Shown piece by piece: positions 6,357-54,300 of a stretch of 64,000 bases of DNA. Source of the stretch: Xiphophorus maculatus (Eukaryota > Chordata > Actinopteri > Cyprinodontiformes > Poeciliidae). How positions within the stretch are numbered: position 1 is the first letter of the stretch; each line of letters begins with the position of its first letter. A model generated the notes under the pieces. That model did not search any database. It had not been told where the DNA came from and was given only the letters and a program-made list of their open reading frames with translations. Made by a program: the position numbers and the translations under genes. The DNA lies in assembly GCF_002775205.1 (NCBI RefSeq), contig NC_036454.1, forward strand, positions 4,345,882 through 4,409,881, in the 5' to 3' direction.

Positions 6357-9300
6357 TTTATTCCAAACAATAACGCAAAGACAAACGAAACAAAACCAGG
6401 AAACGTCACTGCTGCCATGGCTTGAAGTGTAAAGCATAAAATAAATATTTTATGGCTTGAAAAAAATATTAAATACTCCCACACTTCCTCAGTCAGCAGT
6501 GATTCTGCACTATCTATTCAGCTATCTCACCTTCACCGTCCAGGAATTGATTTAAGTTAATATTCTACAGTTCTTTCAAATACTATATATATTTATATAT
6601 AAAAATATATAGAATGGATCTAAGGAACGATGTGAAGGATTTAATCTCAGATCATTTTGGTTTTGCTGGATTTTTAAATCTATTTCTAGGATATCGGAAT
6701 ATTTAAAGGGCCAGCGATGCACCAAACTGGGAGTCATTTTCTACAAAAACACTAAACAAAACATATTCCCATGGTGCAATTTGCAACTAAAGTCATCTTT
6801 AATAATAAACTTAGTTACATTAACCGGCATAAAAACCAATTAGCCAAACGTTTCACTTAACACTTATTTTAACTTGTTCTTTAAAGGTTTTTAATAACCA
6901 TATGTGTCTGTTGTCATAGAACAAATAAATGCAGCATTAAAATCAATAATGCTGCCATTATTGCACATCTCTGGAGTTAATAACAATCACATACTCTTTG
7001 AAACGTATTTTATGAGAACTAAAAAGGGCTACAATGCCCCATACTATGACCTGAGTGAAGTTGTCCCTCCTACATTCTTCAAATCTAACAAAATTGTTGT
7101 CAAATGTTTGCGCTGCTTTTGGTTTCAAGATATTAATTAAAGTTAAAAGGTCAACAAACCCTCCCACATTACCCATAGCTAACAAAATTGGCGTCAAACG
7201 TTTGTGCAGTAAAAATTTGTGTTTGTGCCACTATCATTTTAAAGATATTAATAAAAAAGTTTCCAGAAGTCATCATCAATATCTTCAAATGAAAAGCAGC
7301 ACAAATAAAATTTTTGCTGCACAAACATAGCCGAGTTGATTGACACCAAATTTTTTTGCTTATCTAAACGTGACCTCTGGAAACGTTTTTTATTAACATC
7401 TTCAAAATGAGAGCGGCACAAACAAAAAAATGGCTGAACAAATATTTGACGCCAGTTTTGTCAGACTTGGCTAATGTGTTGGCAGGCTGGTTGACCTTTA
7501 GACTTTTTAGCTTTCATGAATATTAAAAAAAAAAATTGCAGCACAAATGTAGCTAAGTTGATACCAAATTTGTCTGATTTTGTAAATGTGATCTTAGAAA
7601 CTTTTCTATTAGTATCTTTAAAATGATAACGGCACAAATGAAAATTTTGTGTTAACACCAATATAGTCAGATTTGGGTAATGAGGGGGGGGGGCTGGTTG
7701 ACCTTTAAACTTTCATTGATATCCTCAAAGCCACAGCAGCACAAAAAACGTTTGCAGCACAAATGTAGAGTTTGATTTGAAGACCTTCCATGACCTCTGC
7801 AAACATTTATTATCATATTTTAAATGATTGCGGCACAAACGGGAATTTTTGCTGCACAAACGTTTGACACCAATTTTGTTAGATTTGAAGAAGACAGAGA
7901 ACCAACTTCACTCATGTCTATAATTAAAATCAGTTATAGTCAGTATGTGACACTTCACAGCAGTTTTTGCCTTCAAACATGAAAGTCCTCTTAGTTAAAA
8001 AAAAAACGAAACACTTTTCTGAGAGAATTTTCAGATTTTTGGGATCTAAAAGCTGGAAATGAAGCGATAGCAATGAGTTCATTTTGAAGAAAAGTAGATA
8101 ATTTGTTGGGATGGTATCAGTTTGTTTCAATCACACCATCTGAACTCAGGTACTCAGCTGTTCTTCTGTCATGTGCGCAATTAATTTCTAAAGACAGAGG
8201 CTCTTTTCTACCCTGCTGGACGGCAACTTTTCAGCTGGCAACTTTAGTGCCATTTCTCTGAAACTTGATTTTTCCTCCACAAAGAAACGTTTTGTTTTGT
8301 TCAACCAAGAGGCTCAAATTTGAGATAATTTGGTGATTGTTTTTTTTTAATTGCCTTGATTTAACATTTAATTGATTAGAAAAAAGTTTTATCTGGTGCT
8401 TCTTTTTCAGGCTCAAGTATTTAGCAGAAAATAATTAAATTTTTGGAGAAGTTTCAAGTTATCTAGTAGTTTTTTTAAACACCTGGTGATTCATAACGTA
8501 AACATTAATGGAATATATTTGATGGGTAACTTCAGCGAGGATTGGGTATCACTTATCACTAATCAATAAGTTGAGGAAGGTAAACACAGATAAGATCATG
8601 AACTCGTAAAAATTGGAAATCCACAGAATATTTGAGGACAAAAAAATAAAATAAAATAAAGCATGAGACCACAGATATGCACCCTGGATTACACATAATG
8701 AAAAAAAAATCTAAAAAACTATTTGCAGCTTTTATAAATGAAGGGCACAGATGGTAAACTGTAGAGAAATGCCACTGCATGGGCCTCTTGGAAAAAAAAG
8801 ACATTAAACATAATCTTCACAATGAAGGATCCATCACTGCATAAAGAAGACAAAGAAGCAATAATGTTCCAGGATCATCGTGTAGCCCTTCACCAAACTT
8901 TTCTCTAGTTTTTAAATGTTATAAACAAAATTCACACAAAAATGTTCAAATGGAAGGAATATTTCCACCTCAAAGTCCTTCAGGATTTGTGCTTTTTTGG
9001 TATAGGGAAAGCATAAGAAACAAACAAAAGTAAAACGTTCACAGCAGCTGTTATTTTGATCTGCTTTCACAAAGAATCACTGATATTTTCACCTGCGTGA
9101 ACTTTAACCGATCCCAGATCAGAGGAACGTCGAGGACAAACGAGCAAGAGGAAAACAAAGAGACTTTCAAAAGGAAAATGTGGTTAAAGGAGAACTGGGT
9201 TGATGTTTTAAAACCGTCATAAGAGAGAAAAAAAGTTAGAAGGTCATGAACTTTACTGCATGTCAGAGCTGCACAAAAGCAGCCAGTTCTTCTAAATACA

Positions 9301-9372: not shown

Positions 9373-26220
<16,848 letters not shown>

Positions 26221-39930: not shown

Positions 39931-40619
39931 AACACTTGTTCCAGGTGCATTGCTGTTGTTGAAATTTGGTTGTCAAAGCTCAAAATTACATGGCTACAGA
40001 GTTGAACAGCTCTATTGGAATCCGTTTCTCTAATATTTATAGGAAATATTTATTTATCTATATATAATGTATGATTATATTACATCATATATAATGATGC
40101 ATAGTACAGGATTTATATACATATATTAGATATAATCTGTATTATATTTTATATAAATATATCTTGTAAAATTATATTAATTTCATAATTTGTAAATTAT
40201 ATACATATGTATTATATTTGAAAATTATTACAATTTTATATTTCTAATTATTTTATATCTAAGTATTTGAACTGTTTTCCTTCTTTAATACAAAGTAAAT
40301 ATCAATATGTTAACAAATTTGCTTGTTTTTACTAAATTGCACATCATATGAAAGCAATTTACATTATGCATATAGAATAGAATTTATTGTCACCGTACAA
40401 TAATATTAAAGTCAGCTCCAAAACAGCGCAACCATTGTAAGACATTTATGAAATATAAACACACACTATGCCCCATTTTGCAAAGTGCCAGCATGTTACA
40501 CCTCGCCCAAAGCAAGAATCACAAGCCACGTCCACAAGGCCAAACCTCAACCTCAACCTCAACTCAGCTGAGTGAAGCTGACACCCCACCCACCTCAAAA
40601 AATTCAGCAAATAGTCTGA

Positions 40620-41535
40620 GTGGTTAGTGCTCCGTTAGTGCAGGTTTGTGCCGTTAAAATTTTCGTTTGTGCAGCTTTCGTTTTCGAGATATTAAAAATT
40701 ATATTTTAGGTCATCCAGAGTTCACCATCCCCCCATGTTGCTCCAAAACAAACCAAACTGGGCTACTTCGTTAGTGCTCCGTTTGTGCAGGTTTGTGCCG
40801 TTAAAATTTTCGTTTGTGCAGCTTTCGTTTTCGAGATATTAAAAGTTATAATTTTGGCCGATGACGTCACCATCCCCCCATGTTGCGCCAAAACGAACCA
40901 AACTAGGCTACTTCGTTAGTGCTTCGTTAGTGCAGGTTTGTGCCGTTAAAACGGACGTTTGTGCAGCTTTGGTTTCTGAAATATTAAAAGTTATAATTTT
41001 GGCCGATGACGTCACCACCCCCCCATGTTGCTCCGAAACACACCAAACTAGGCTACTTCGTTAGTGCTTCGTTTGTGCAGGTTTGTGCCGTTAAAATTTT
41101 CGTTTGTGCAGCTTTCGTTTTCGAGATATTAAAAATTATATTTTAGGTCATCCAGAGTTCACCATCCCCCCATGTTGCTCCAAAACAAACCAAACTAGGC
41201 TACTTCGTTAGTGCTCCGTTTGTGCAGGTTTGTGCAGTTAAAATTTTCGTTTGTGCAGCTTTCGTTTTCGAGATATTAAAAGTTATAATTTTGGCCGATG
41301 ACGTCACCATCCCCCCATGTTGCGCCAAAACGAACCAAACTAGGCTACTTCGTTAGTGCTTCGTTAGTGCAGGTTTGTGCAGTTAAAACGGACGTTTGTG
41401 CAGCTTTGGTTTCTGAAATATTAAAGATTATTTTTTAGGTCATCCAGAGTTCACCATCCCCCCATGTTGCTCCAAAACAAACCAAACTAGGCTACTTCGT
41501 TAGTGCTCCGTTAGTGCAGGTTTGTGCCGTAAGCT
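40620..41535 (+). repeat. Left arm: six tandem units of about 145 bp
   Basis: Units show two interchangeable middles: TTGGCCGATGACGTCACCA (type A, starting near 40855, 41001, 41293) and TTAGGTCATCCAGAGTTCACC (type B). All share CCCCCCATGTTG(C/G), CCAAAC(T/G)(A/G)GGCTACTTCGTTAG, GCAGGTTTGTGC(C/A)GTTAAAA and GTTTGTGCAGCTTT. Spacing between equivalent type-A sites is 145 bp. Apparent 67-codon frames in the array arise from the repeat. Confidence 0.92.
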
Positions 41536-42477
41536 ATCCATGCATACATCCTCTCTGCTTTGCATCGAGTCAACATTTTATATGAAACCTGAACATTAAT
41601 TTACTTACCTTGTTCAAAAATCAAAATCAGGGTTGGAAAAATTCCAAAGATGACTCTTTCAAAACGATTTCTTTCAAACTGCTAGAATAATTTCAACGAG
41701 AGGCTGAAATTACACTTGCTCTTCCGCAAAAACAACACTCGCTACAGTGTGGGTGGAGCCAATCACAGTTGACGTTGTGTGAGAACTTTGTCAAAGTTGG
41801 CAAAACATTTTACGTGCTTTTAAAAATCCTTGAAGATCACGCATATACATTTAATGTCAGCAATTGGATGAAATGAAACTCGTTGCATTTAAAATATATT
41901 TACTAAATATTAAGTACATTACTTGGATGAACTTTGTTGAACCAATGACCCTGCCATGCACTTCCGGTTTAACTCTGCAAAAACTTTATTTGCTCAAGAA
42001 ACTAGCATGTTAGCTATGGATTTTTTGTTGTTGTCGTTTTTTACCCTTTTGCTGCATAATCAGCAGAAAGTAAGTCAACAATGTGAATATAATTGTTGAA
42101 ACCACCTCCGAAACCAAAGCACAGTTGAACAGTCGTACAAATACACACATTACGTTACGGTCACGGCCGCATGTCCTGTCTTGACAGGATTCATTTATTG
42201 TGGAGAAAGTTATATTGGTGAGAAAACATTACTATCTAAAAACATTTCTTGAAATGAGACAAATTTCTTCTTGTTCGAAATCTTTATTGAAGTTCAAAAC
42301 AAAAGAAGGTACACATTGTACAACAGCTGAAAATCTGCAGAATTTAACTTACACAATAACATACGAAATTAATAACTGCTTGCTTTGTGGTTATGTCCAG
42401 AGCAGGCCACAGTCATCAATTTAGGTGAAGTCAGTTGGCGTATGAAAGAAAATTATGTAATATCTCATGATGAGCAG
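41536..42477. other. Unique centre of the transposon
   Basis: No transposase seen. Minus strand: GATTGGCTCC (inverted CCAAT, near 41757) followed by a strong donor GAACAAG/GTAAGT (near 41612). Plus strand: ACTTCCGG (ETS-like, about 41960) followed by ATG at 42007, a 21-codon hydrophobic start MLAMDFLLLSFFTLLLHNQQ(K) and AAA/GTAAGT donor at 42069/42070. This resembles two divergent promoter-plus-first-exon pieces, perhaps captured host sequence, but could be chance. Confidence 0.35.
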
Positions 42478-43935
42478 TAGCCCAGTTTGTTTTGTTTTGG
42501 CGCAACATGGGGGGATGGTGAACTCGGATGACCTAAAAAATAATCTTTAATATTTCAGAAACCAAAGCTGCACAAACGTCCGTTTTAACGGCACAAACCT
42601 GCACTAACGGAGCACTAACGAAGTAGCCCAGTTTGGTTTGTTTTGGAGCAACATGGGGGGATGGTGAACTCGGATGACCTAAAAAATAATCTTTAATATT
42701 TCAGAAACCAAAGCTGCACAAACGTCCGTTTTAACGGCACAAACCTGCACTAACGGAGCACTAACGAAGTAGCCTAGTTTGGTTTGTTTTGGCGCAACAT
42801 GGGGGGATGGTGACGTCATCGGCCAAAATTATAACTTTTAATATTTCAGAAACGAAAGCTGCACAAACGTCCGTTTTAACGGCACAAACCTGCACTAACG
42901 AAGCACTAACGAAGTAGCCTAGTTTGGTTCGTTTTGGCGCAACATGGGGGGATGGTGACGTCATCGGCCAAAATTATAACTTTTAATATCTCGAAAACGA
43001 AAGCTGCACAAACGAAAATTTTAACGGCACAAACCTGCACAAACGGAGCACTAACGAAGTAGCCTAGTTTGGTTTGTTTTGGAGCAACATGGGGGGATGG
43101 TGAACTCTGGATGACCTAAAATATAATTTTTAATATCTCGAAAACGAAAGCTGCACAAACGAAAATTTTAACGGCACAAACCTGCACAAACGAAGCACTA
43201 ACGAAGTAGCCTAGTTTGGTGTGTTTCGGAGCAACATGGGGGGATGGTGAACTCGGATGACCTAAAAAATAATCTTTAATATTTCAGAAACCAAAGCTGC
43301 ACAAACGTCCGTTTTAACTGCACAAACCTGCACTAACGAAGCACTAACGAAGTAGCCTAGTTTGGTTCGTTTTGGCGCAACATGGGGGGATGGTGACGTC
43401 ATCGGCCAAAATTATAACTTTTAATATTTCAGAAACCAAAGCTGCACAAACGTCCGTTTTAACTGCACAAACCTGCACTAACGAAGCACTAACGAAGTAG
43501 CCTAGTTTGGTTCGTTTTGGCGCAACATGGGGGGATGGTGACGTCATCGGCCAAAATTATAACTTTTAATATTTCAGAAACCAAAGCTGCACAAACGTCC
43601 GTTTTAACTGCACAAACCTGCACTAACGAAGCACTAACGAAGTAGCCTAGTTTGGTTCGTTTTGGCGCAACATGGGGGGATGGTGACGTCATCGGCCAAA
43701 ATTATAACTTTTAATATCTCGAAAACGAAAGCTGCACAAACGAAAATTTTAACTGCACAAACCTGCACAAACGGAGCACTAACGAAGTAGCCTAGTTTGG
43801 TTTGTTTTGGAGCAACATGGGGGGATGGTGAACTCTGGATGACCTAAAATATAATTTTTAATATCTCGAAAACGAAAGCTGCACAAACGAAAATTTTAAC
43901 GGCACAAACCTGCACTAACGGAGCACTAACCACTC
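42478..43935 (-). repeat. Right arm: ten tandem units of about 145 bp, inverted
   Basis: Reverse complement of the left-arm units; CAACATGGGGGGATGG occurs ten times. Five type-A units carry TGACGTCA. Three consecutive type-A units (about 43366-43700) are nearly identical to each other, suggesting recent unequal exchange or conversion. Confidence 0.92.
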
Positions 43936-44169
43936 AGACTATTTGCTGAATTTTTTGAGGTGGGTGGGGTGTCAGCTTCACTCAGCTCCTCAACTCAGGT
44001 ATTTGGAACACGAAGTGTGTGAGTGACGCATGCGTGATACGAAATATACAACGACAAAATTATATTAACTTGTTTTTCAAACTTTTAAACGGAATATGTT
44101 TAAAAATATTTGCTAATTACGTAATATACGTTTTATATGAACAAAAAAAATATTTAGAAAATAATCAGC

Positions 44170-44354
44170 GTCTTCCGATGACGTAGTGTCGTGAGACGGA
44201 AGTTGTTTTAATCGCGGAAGTGAAGTGGTACAGTAGTGCTGTTGTTGAAGCTGACTAGAGATCACATTTGGGATTCTTTACAACGTTCAGGGTTTATTTA
44301 TTTATTTTTGCTTTATGTAGGTTTCTGAGAGGCTCACGTTCTCGGGTAGACCAG
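44170..44354 (+). promoter_or_regulatory. stambp: STAMBP promoter and noncoding first exon
   Basis: TATA-less region with GATGACGTAG (CRE-like), GACGGAAGTTG and CGCGGAAGTGA (two ETS-like sites, about 44196-44222), then an exon ending GACCAG/GTAAGA (donor at 44355). The spliced partner is the acceptor before 48321. The intron 44355-48320 holds repeats and no gene. Confidence 0.6.
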
Positions 44355-48338: not shown

Positions 48339-51300
48339 ATGGCGGATCACATGGATGTCAACTTGCCGCCGGAAGAGCGAGTCCGCGCTCTGACCCAACG
48401 AGGCAGCTCGGTGGAAGTCAACGACGACGTGCCGCCGCGACGTTACTTCCGCTCTGGCATGGAGATGATCCGAATGGCCCACATCTACACAGAAGAGGGA
48501 AACCTCGAACGCGCCTTTGTACTTTACAATAAATATATTACGTGAGTTTTTAATAAAAAAATTAAGTCCAAGACTTGTCGCTTAGACCACATCCAGCAAT
48601 CGCCATAATTTTGTTGATTGTTTTATTTAAAAATAAAGATGTTAACCTGATTCTTATGTCTATTTTAAGGCTTTTTATTGAAAAACTTCCCAAACATCGG
48701 GATTACAAGACGGCAAACATCCCAGAGAAAAAGGACACAGTAAAGGTACCCAAAGAGTTTGGTGTTTTACCATTTATCTGATTGTGTCTTTTTTTCTTTT
48801 CTTTAATTTTTTTGTGGAAAACTCACAGCTTAACTTTGTGATTCCTCAACAGAAACTCAAAGATGTGGCGTTTCCGCAAGCAGAAGTTCTCAAACAGGCT
48901 CTTTTAAAAAGATTTGAACAAGAATATGCACAGTATCTGGTCAAAAAGGTAAGATGAAGCACCAGTCTATTACAAAAGTGTTCATTCCCCTGAAACTTTG
49001 TTTTACATTTTACCATTTTATTTGTATAGCATATTTTAATAAATGGGGTCATTCGAAGTGCGTTACATTATCAGAATGGCGATATAGCAAACGAGCAACA
49101 ACTTTACATCCAGTGGCAAAATAAGGGAAAATGACACCAAGTTAAAAGATAACTACACTTTAAGATGTTATAGTTATTATGAATCAAATGGAAAATGAAT
49201 CTGGCTGCGGTATACTGGGACCGTACCAGTTGGAAGCAGTCTACTGGAAAACAAATGGGGTTTTAACCTTGATTTAAGGAACTCAGTGTTTCTGTAATTT
49301 TGAAGTTTTCTGGAAGTTTGTGCCAGATTAGAGGAACATAAAAACTAACTTCTGTCATCCAGTTTTTGGTAGAAACGGGGAGAGAAAACAGAAAAAACAA
49401 TAAATAAAGCAAATGGAAATTATTGAGCTCTTTTTAATTTATCATGCGATTAATTGATTTATTGCTTATTGTGACAGGACTAGTTTTGTCTTAACAACTG
49501 CTCTAAGTAGGGGTGGGCATTTATTGTATTCTTTATCATGATTAATTTGTTATCATAATAAGAATATTGATTAATCATTGTCACAATAAGTTCCAATTAA
49601 TGGCGTTTTTAAAAAAAACAAACCGTCCTTATCATCAGGATTGATAGTTTTACCATTTTCTCCATTGAGTGTTGAATGAAAGCATCAATAATCACCAATA
49701 CACTTGAAAATTCAGTTACTCTGAGCAGTTTAGTGATACAAATCACACTGGTGTCCTTAAGAAACAAATTACAAATGGGAACTTTTCAGGAGCAGTATTT
49801 GTGTTTGTGGGGCTAATAATTGCTGTGGCACACAATCGCCTAAGAAGAAATAATAAATTACTCTTGTGTCACTTTTATTCTTATCACAGTAATACAGCAA
49901 AATATTGTGATAAAACGTTTAAGTCCATATGGCCCACTAAGAGCTCTGAGTGTGATGTTCTTTCAGCAAATGGCCCTTCTGAGAGTCTGCATACTCCAGT
50001 TAATGATTAATCGATTACTAAATGAGTTAATTTAGATAATACATCTAAATTAGATCTATTATTTGTCAATAATAGATCAGTTATAATAATTGTGATTTCA
50101 AATATGATTAATCACGATCAATTGTTATTAATCAATTATTGGAATAATCAGCTATTGAAATAATTCTCAACTAATTCAGCCAGCTAATTGTGATTAATTA
50201 GGATTTCAGTAATCAATTAATTAGGATTAACCATGATTAATCATGATTAATTGATTATTGAAATAATACTCAACTTATTTAGTATACAAACTCAAAAAAA
50301 GGCCATTTTTGAGTGTGTATAGTCAGACTCAAAATGTGTACATTAATTATGATTAATTGTGATTAATCAGATTAATAAGATGAATCATTTCAGTACTACA
50401 AACTAAGAGACCAGACCTTTCACTCAGCTGTGGTCTGTCATACCTGCAGAAAGCGGAGGAGGAGGCCCTGGCGCTGGAGCAGTCCAGGCAGCGTGCGCTG
50501 GACGCCGAGCGGGAACGCGTCGCCGTAATGCAACGGCGGCAGCGGGAGCAGGAGCAGTTCAGTGCCTTCGAGGAGATGATCCGTCGCCAGGAGCTGGAGA
50601 AGGAGCGCCAGCGAGTGCTTCTGGAGTTCGCCACGCCGTCCGCGCCTCCCGCCGACACGCCCCTCATTCCTGGCATCCAGGGCCCGCCGTTGGTGCCCCC
50701 CACCGCCCCGCTGAGCCCCGGCGATTTCGGCGCCAACGACTATCAGCACCATCGGCCCGCTGCTACGCCGGGCACGCCAGTGGCCGGCCCACCCAGCTTT
50801 GACCGCTCGCTCAAACCCGGGTCTCTGGTCAGCCCCGGGAACAACAGTGAGTTAATCATTTCTTTTCCCTGAGCTGCTTTGCATCTTTAGTTCCTGTTTA
50901 AACTAAAGATGCACTGATCTGATATTAATATCTGTAGAGGTCCTGACAAGAAAAAAAATTATAGAACGAGCTTCACAATTAAAGGGTCCCATATAGATCT
51001 ATAATTAGACCTGACACTGTGACAAATTTTGCTGGACAATAAATTGTCCCAGAAGTTATTGTGATTAACAATAATATTGTTGTTTGGAGACTATTTTTTA
51101 GTAATATAATGAAAGGAATAATAGTGCAAGAACACATTCTCAAAGACCAATAAACTTTCAATTCTAATGACCTTTTGACACTGGAACTGGAAAACATTTT
51201 AAATATCCAAAATAAATAAACAAAACAACAGAAACAACAAATGAAATTAATTATGGAGTCTCTGTACACAAAATTATCTTTCTGAAAAATGATAGTTGAA

Positions 51301-54300
51301 ACCAAAGCAGCAAACTGAAAATTTTTGTCATCCAGTTTTTGGCAGTAAGAGAAAAACAATAATTCATGAAAATGTTAATTATTGAGCTTGTTTTGATTTA
51401 TCATGCGATTAATTGATTTATTGCAACAGGTGTAGCGAGAATTATTGATCAGTTCTTTGTTTTAAATATCTGAAATACTACCAATCTGATGGCGTGACCT
51501 TTCCTGTTTCATCCAGTTTTCTCTCCACGTTGTCGTTTTTATTTTTAAGCATTTATGAGGCAATGTAGCAAAACCTAAAAACCGCTTCTGCGCCAGTTAC
51601 TCCACAAGTCGTTGCTAGGTAACCGAAGTTGGGGGGGAACTGCTTGTTACCCAGCAGGTTGTTGCTAGGGAACCACAGATTCCACCAACTCCCCTTTGGT
51701 CAGAGTTCAGTGGATATTCTATCCATTAAATATTGAATTATAAGCTGTATTATCTACTGGTATTGATCACATATCTATCGCAATATACATTGTTATTGAT
51801 TTATTGTCCGGCCTTGAGTCCGGGTGTCTGTGACAATGTGCCTGATCCATTAGGGCAGATGAAGCTATTGGTGTATTAAAATGTCCTGTACTGGTGCAAC
51901 GTTGTCAATAAATTTGTAATTTATGTATGTGTTTAGAAAAAAGAAATGTTTTCAGTCAATTCAGCGCTGCTTTTCTGTATCGGATCGGTATTGATCGATG
52001 CAGAACCTCAGATATTGGTATTGGAAATGGACAAAATGGACAGACTTCTCCATTCAGCTGCTGTTTTCCTCCTCTGTGTGGTTTTTTGCAGGTACAATGG
52101 TGGATGCCCTGCGGCAGCTGGCCGTTCCTGCTGAGCTGTGCCGCAGCTTCCTGAGGCTGGCCGAGGCCAACACCAGCCGCGCTGTGGAAACCTGCGGCAT
52201 CCTGTGTGGAAAACTGGTAAATCTTTGGAACGCAGCAGCTCACACAATTTGTTTTATTAAATTTCTCTATAAAATTTGCACATCTTAAAAGTTTACAGAA
52301 CTTTGCGAAGGTATTTATAGCCGTTAAAAAAAAATCTGTTGTAAGGCCAAATCTGTTGGTATGTCCTCTAGAGAAACAAAGTACAAAGTATTGACTCAAG
52401 AGGCTAAAAACAAATACACCGAATGGTGAAATGATTAATCATGATTAATTGATTATTGGAATAACAGCCAACTAATTTAGTAATCAATTAATTGTTAATT
52501 GTATTTTCAGTCATTTGCTAAAAAAACAAAACAGAGCACCAATTAAGACAAAACTGTAAAAAAAAAAAAATGCATTAAAAAATATAAAATTGTAACGGAC
52601 TGAAAGTTCTGTACTTTAAGAAATATTTGCGCCACGAATCCTGATGTAGTCAAGATGTTGCCAGTTGCTATGACAACAAGTATGTGTGTAGCGTAGCCGA
52701 CACAGAGAGCGAGAAAAAAGAAGAATACGAGTGGTTTTGCGTTGTTCTTCAAAGGTTTTTCTGTGTTATTTTTCCCTTTGCTGTGGTTCTCTGCACTAAA
52801 TTAATAATCCCAACGTCTCCAGGATTCATTTTGTTAACGAATTGTTCCAGCACGGCTATGGATGGAAAGTAAAAGGAGAGCCTTTTTGCTAAATTTCTGA
52901 TGTGCACAATAACATGTCCTATCCACACCACACTTTTCAGATTTTATTTTATTATTCTTCCTCTTCACAGTTATGTGTCACTATGTGGGTTGACTTCATA
53001 AAATCTTAAATATATAATCCATTAAAGTTCCTGGTCATTTATCAAAAGCATGACTCAGCATTCTTTGACTGGTTTGTGTTCGTTCCAGACCAGAAATGCG
53101 TTCACTGTGACTCACGTCATCGTGCCGAAGCAGTGCGGCGGGCCGGACTACTGTGACACTGAGAACGAGGAGGAGCTGTTCCTGATCCAGGACCAGCACG
53201 ACCTCATCACCCTGGGATGGATCCATGTGAGTGACAGGAAGCTGCTGGCATCACTTCCTGCTCTGCTCAGGGCAGACGCTCTGTCCTGAGGGAGAGGAAG
53301 CTCATCCAACCATCAACCAATCCATCCAACCGATGCGTCTGAAGCGTCCTTCTGTCTGTCGATTCTTCCTTCCTTCCTTCCTTCCTTCCTTCCTTCCTTC
53401 CTTCCTTCCTTCCTTCCTTCCTTCCTTCCTTCCTTCCTTCCTCCTTCCTTTCCTTCCTTCCTTCCTTCCTTCCTTCCTTCCTTCCTTCCTTCCTTCCTTC
53501 CTTCCTTCTCTTTCTTTCTTTCTTTCTTTCTTTTCTTTTTTCTTCCTCTCTTTCTTTCATTTTCTTCTTTCATCCCTTCCTTCCTTCTTTTGTTCCATAA
53601 TTCCTCTTTCCTTTCTTTCCTCCATCTTTCCTTTCTTCCATTCTTCTATCCTTTCTTCCTTCCTTCCTCCCTTCCTTCTCTCCTCTCCTTTTCTCTTTCC
53701 TTCCTCCTTCCTTCCATTCTCTCTTCCTCCCATCTTTCCTGTCTTCCTGCCTTTCCTCCCTTTTTGCTTGATTCCCTTCCTTTCTCTTTCCTTTCTTCCT
53801 TTTCTTTTTTCTTTGCTCCTTCCTTCCTCCCTTCCTTCCTTCCTTCCTTCCTTCCTTCCTTCCTTCCTTCCTTCCTTCCTTCCTTCCTTCCTTCCTTCCT
53901 TCCTTCCTTCCTTCCTTCCTTCCTTCCTTCCTTCCTTCTTGTTTTCTTAAGTTTTCTCTCTCCCTCCCTCAAAAATAGATCAACTTTCAACTTTGATTAT
54001 TGAACAGTTTGCATCTCTGTTCTGATCATTTTTTCTATCAGTTCCACTCCTACAAACATTATTTCCATTTTTAAAAAAAAGTCTCATTGCCACTTTTGAA
54101 TCAAACATTTTTGGTGTCTTTGATCGCAACTCGAAAAGTTTGGGAAACATCAAAGTTAGTTTTATGAATCAGAGAAAATCCACGTTTATTATTGAGCGAT
54201 AAATACCTTTAAATGCTCTGGAAGTTTATGTTGTCAATGTTAAAAGTTACTATATTAATAATATTTAGTAATATTTGTTCTTGTTTTCCCAGACTCACCC

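Follow-up and report, generated by a model that had tools for sequence, protein, structure and literature searches.

A stretch of 64,000 nucleotides of fish DNA (the window) holds at 40566-43987 a structure of 3422 bp (3.4 kb) in which two tandem arrays face each other in opposite orientation, and the questions that it raises are whether it is a transposon and, if so, which group of transposases would move it. The structure is, with little doubt, a foldback transposon, a non-autonomous DNA element of the cut-and-paste type, having the long inverted arms of tandem repeats that flank a middle domain as well as a target-site duplication, exact over 9 bp in this young copy. The foldback architecture had been proposed in an earlier note on this DNA, and the inverted arms of tandem units around a centre support it well.

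The boundaries of the element are exact. Identical 9-bp copies of CCTCAACTC flank it at 40557..40565, where the sequence terminates a short CCTCAA run, and at 43988..43996, and beyond these two copies no further CCTCAACTC is present on either strand of the whole window. Since AG opens the element and also follows the duplication in the right flank, the direct repeat may be taken as 9, 10 or 11 bp long (CCTCAACTCAG); symmetrical ends are obtained with the 9-bp reading only. When the end positions were allowed to vary over a 9 x 11 grid and the length over 8-10, a perfect duplication was seen in 0.65% of 2000 random site pairs, and for 9 bp at fixed symmetrical ends the arithmetic chance is 4^-9. 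Compared reading inwards, the inverted ends are identical over the first 194 bp, with cumulative mismatches of 1 by 204, 2 by 349 and 21 by 582, and a separate inverted-repeat measurement gives 96% identity over 582. Thus, the perfect 9-bp flanking duplication reported earlier stands, as does the exact inversion of the termini, while their reported length of 17 bp was too low.

Each end of the element begins with a unique tip of 57 bp, the left one (40566..40622, + strand) opening with AGCTGAGTGAAGCTGAC and the right one (43931..43987, - strand) being identical to it as the reverse complement. The left arm follows with six complete units, L1-L6, of 145-147 bp each (40623..41498, +), and its array ends in a partial unit, L7, a 32-nt fragment (41499..41530, +). 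Meanwhile, the right arm has ten inverted units, running from R10 at the inner side to R1 at the outer side (42474..43930, -). TRF finds two arrays of period 145, one with 6.2 copies (40623-41530) and one with 10.0 copies (42476-43930), so that the earlier count of six units on the left and ten inverted units on the right is confirmed by TRF and by the unit alignment, with the left fragment in addition. When folded as DNA, one unit (R1) was no more stable than its shuffles (z -0.15).

The centre between the arms (41531..42473) is 943 bp long, in agreement with the unique centre of about 950 bp described before, and occurs once in the window, where the best non-self match of the query 41546-42480 reached 28 bits with an E of 0.17. 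Its longest stop-to-stop frame is 79 aa, and a Pfam scan of 4 of the 13 centre frames of at least 35 aa reached no family cut-off and gave no match to a transposase, the matches below the cut-off being DUF5373, YajC and Fijivirus_P9-2. The element is accordingly taken to be non-autonomous, as had been claimed, since no centre frame exceeds 79 aa and the Pfam matches of the scanned frames are all below the cut-off. A homologue search with a 67-aa frame of the arm unit returned no candidate. The centre also has the words CCAAT (41759 and 41942), CACTTCCGG (41959) and GTAAGT (once, at 42070), and could speculatively be a captured promoter with a first exon or the remnant of the transposon's own gene; such short words arise by chance, which keeps the promoter and exon reading speculative.

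The units share a further regularity, the motif GTTWGTGC, which is present four times in each of the 16 full units. The left arm has 27 motifs, every one forward, and the right arm has 40, every one reverse, giving 67 in both arms and none in the centre; outside the element, six lie in an older copy described below and seven in the remaining 59,675 bp. The arm repeats of some Galileo subfamilies hold binding sites for the THAP-domain transposase (PMC3688188), and by this analogy the GTTWGTGC motifs are, fairly probably, putative transposase-binding sites as well. A transposase encoded elsewhere would then bind the GTTWGTGC array and the AGCTGAGTGAAG tips, pair the ends of the element and excise it, and insertion at a new site would follow with a 9-bp stagger. 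The autonomous partner that the earlier note supposed is a guess. The arm units also carry eight perfect copies of the CRE-like word TGACGTCA, three on the left and five on the right, with none in the older copy and two elsewhere in the window.

Regarding the source of the transposase, the Mutator group (MULE or NOF/Rehavkus) is the most likely one, a view held with moderate confidence because the duplication is 9 bp, the duplication length being the sole basis of this Mutator-like assignment. Rehavkus and FB/NOF form one group, and the element shares the 9-bp duplication of Rehavkus and NOF. Duplications of the Mutator superfamily are given as 8-11 bp (PMC6446971), a range that holds the duplication of the element, with 9 bp at symmetrical ends and 11 bp at the maximum. 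As in the element, a minisatellite lies within Rehavkus; however, it is placed before the 3' TIR, whereas the arrays of the element form both arms and lie within the inverted repeats, and the Rehavkus TIR is described as 26-400 bp long (PMC6446971). In the part of that survey consulted, Rehavkus is limited to arthropods and annelids, and its transposase bears a PHD finger (PMC6446971).

Two other foldback systems resemble the element. Tetris, a foldback transposon of Drosophila virilis described as non-autonomous and with no transposase found, has TIRs built from tandem repeats in varying number, a middle domain with no apparent coding sequence and duplications of 8-10 bp, but differs in its insect host, in its unit of about 220 bp against about 145 bp, and in an extra inner TIR domain (PMC4079207); this comparison is one of descriptions, not of sequences. 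Tm1, a Mutator/Foldback family of root-knot nematodes with coding and non-coding members, likewise has composite TIRs, varying numbers of tandem motifs and duplications of 8-10 bp, mostly 9 bp, but its repeated motif is of about 14 bp, its 7-bp outer motifs are asymmetric and its Phantom-like Mutator transposase is known (PMC3169594).

The strongest alternative opposes the Mutator-group part of this explanation and not its foldback part: the element may belong to another superfamily (P/Galileo-like, Merlin, hAT or another), its arms having become repetitive independently, which we consider a real possibility while not expecting it. The 9-bp duplication is a poor fit to the 7 bp of Galileo or to the 8 bp that hAT transposons duplicate; in contrast, long TIRs are known from different superfamilies. 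Galileo itself is like the element in its long TIRs, in the internal tandem repeats of some of its subfamilies and in its independently varying arms, and unlike it in its 7-bp duplication (9 bp here), its THAP transposase and its Drosophila host (PMC3688188, PMC3573991). It was filed as foldback-like before the discovery of its P-type transposase placed it in the P superfamily (PMC3688188, PMC3573991), and caution on the superfamily is needed because the foldback form thus arises in the P superfamily too. A THAP-domain fragment, the Galileo type of DNA-binding domain, lies in the window at 20642-20977 on the - strand (Pfam PF05485, E 7.7e-07) and is maybe a transposon relic, with no link to the element. 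The frames around this fragment are taken by us to be ZIP zinc-transporter-like exons, and a PDB search with one ZIP-like frame found no match.

Returning to the Mutator-group reading, the published records from vertebrates diverge. The survey judged vertebrate MuDR records unconvincing (PMC6446971), and MULE-NOF elements have been annotated in zebrafish, with 1159 copies (PMC4746887), in Orestias (PMC11184842) and in cyprinids (PMC7486454), as far as the consulted parts of these sources go. A bolder and tentative proposal, which we consider unlikely, is that the element represents a vertebrate lineage, mobile in recent times, of true Mutator-group transposons (MULE or NOF/Rehavkus), whose arms would be expandable arrays of putative transposase-binding sites (four per unit, 67 per element) and whose centre might be a captured host promoter with a first exon. 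If true, such a lineage would contradict the published view of vertebrate MULE records as misidentified. No fish foldback element with 145-bp arm units was found among the matches listed from the open-licence literature, in the parts of the texts consulted. Exact unit patterns gave no matches in viral contigs and none in genome contigs; since these collections are viral and prokaryotic, both zeros are uninformative on fish. Phage and plasmid DNA gave no match. The tip pattern matched six stretches of viral contigs, once each, which by a rough estimate is taken for chance.

The arms also bear on how the element changes. When the 16 full units were excised and aligned over 147 columns, 32 columns were variable, and 17 of these form two blocks, each with two states in perfect linkage, the first of seven columns (TTTT... 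or CGGA... states) and the second of ten columns, a GACGT/GAGTT difference among them. Each of the four possible pairings of block states is present, in four units apiece. Identical units are L2 and R7, L4 and R6, L5 and R2, and the neighbours R3 and R4. Because the units are mosaics of the two blocks in all four combinations, and because identical units sit in opposite arms, it seems that the arms have swapped or copied units, whether through unequal exchange, through slippage or through conversion of one arm by the other, processes by which they would also lengthen and shorten. The identity of neighbouring units, from which a near-identity had been claimed, is 83-100% with a mean of 90.6% over 14 neighbour pairs. 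Near-identity is thus not the rule among neighbours. Three differences or fewer separate the units of 17 pairs, of which nine are across arms, six join non-adjacent units of one arm and two are neighbours (R3-R4 and R9-R10), so that 15 of the 17 are not neighbours. Consequently, if the arms are homogenised in this manner, unit identity gives no date for the insertion.

The same identities could raise the suspicion that assembly, by collapsing or swapping units, produced the numbers and order of the units and maybe some of the identity between the arms, as the units that are identical across arms (L2-R7, L4-R6 and L5-R2) are not uniquely placeable by short reads. This is improbable to our judgement, as the arms are unlike in the number and order of their unit types, and the ends and the duplication are independent of the unit count.

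In addition to the intact element, the window holds an older decayed relative, absent from the earlier note, at 7049..7917 (ends approximate), 33 kb away, with a short left arm, a long right arm and no centre. Its tips, CTGAGTGAAGTTG and, inverted, ATGAGTGAAGTTG, are alike at 12 of 13 positions, and it contains one inverted repeat of 82 nt at 84% and another of 42 nt at 90%. By Blast (E up to 1e-3), similarity to the element elsewhere in the window is confined to 7200-7326. An nhmmer profile of the young units matches within 7105-7861 with E-values of 3.9e-10, 3.9e-5, 1.2e-4 and 0.0044; the next match (0.074) also lies in the old copy, the best elsewhere in the window is 0.65, and the best of the reversed-window control is 0.031. 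The TTTGYGC words of the old copy show a single strand switch, three forward and then nine reverse. At this copy no target-site duplication is recognisable, the best being 5/8, which 76% of 2000 random pairs match. Similar tips and homologous inverted units suggest that the element is probably one member of a non-autonomous foldback DNA transposon family. That the structure is instead a minisatellite duplicated locally in inverted orientation, with no transposon, is very hard to credit. The signs of unequal exchange in its tandem arrays and the short CCTCAA run in its left flank speak for this, but against it are the symmetrical ends with their exact duplication, the unique 57-bp tips that lie outside the arrays and a second copy 33 kb off with similar tips and inverted homologous units.

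As for age, the CpG observed/expected ratio is 1.03 and 1.07 in the arms, whereas the old copy has 0.51 and the remainder of the window 0.56. The decayed copy being depleted of CpG and the young arms undepleted, the family was probably mobile at least at two times, although the approximate ends of the old copy and its lack of a recognisable duplication count against this. The high CpG of the arms may be due to place or sequence instead of age, and the age reading is weakened because CpG is plentiful in the 3' flank as well (0.93) but not in the centre (0.69), and because the level of the arms (1.02) is attained in 6 of 240 overlapping windows elsewhere. Thus, the duplication, the length and exactness of the inverted ends and the second, decayed copy back the mobility proposed in the earlier note, and the recent insertion is favoured by the intact duplication and, with the caveat given, by the undepleted CpG, but not by the supposed near-identity of neighbouring units. 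No further fresh copy is seen in the window, which has one intact copy.

About 4.35 kb downstream of the insertion, at 48339, begins the first coding exon (PDB 2xze, E 2e-32) of a STAM-binding-protein-like (STAMBP-like) gene. Further exon-like words at 48680, 50384 and 54296 presumably belong to the same STAMBP-like gene. Next to the element, the CpG observed/expected ratio rises to 2.89 (44001-44200) and 1.89 (44101-44300), and this stretch has CGGAAGT twice, so a 5' exon or promoter around 44001-44300 is possible, in which case the insertion may sit just upstream of it. An effect on the STAMBP-like gene is conceivable, given the upstream position of the element and the eight TGACGTCA words of its arms.

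An intact and probably vertebrate foldback element, together with its fossil relative, offers in its tips and GTTWGTGC arrays a handle for finding the transposase, which would in turn be a way to test the real mobility of Mutator-group elements in vertebrates.

Rfam at gathering scores and ARAGORN found nothing over the whole window. Other repeats were observed in it: an imperfect CTTC microsatellite of 574 bp at 53365-53938 (143 copies, 77% matches), about 350 bp ahead of a STAMBP-like exon, and an AT-rich array of GCTAAATATTTAGC-type palindromic repeats at 9780-10330, with a period of 59 bp in part.
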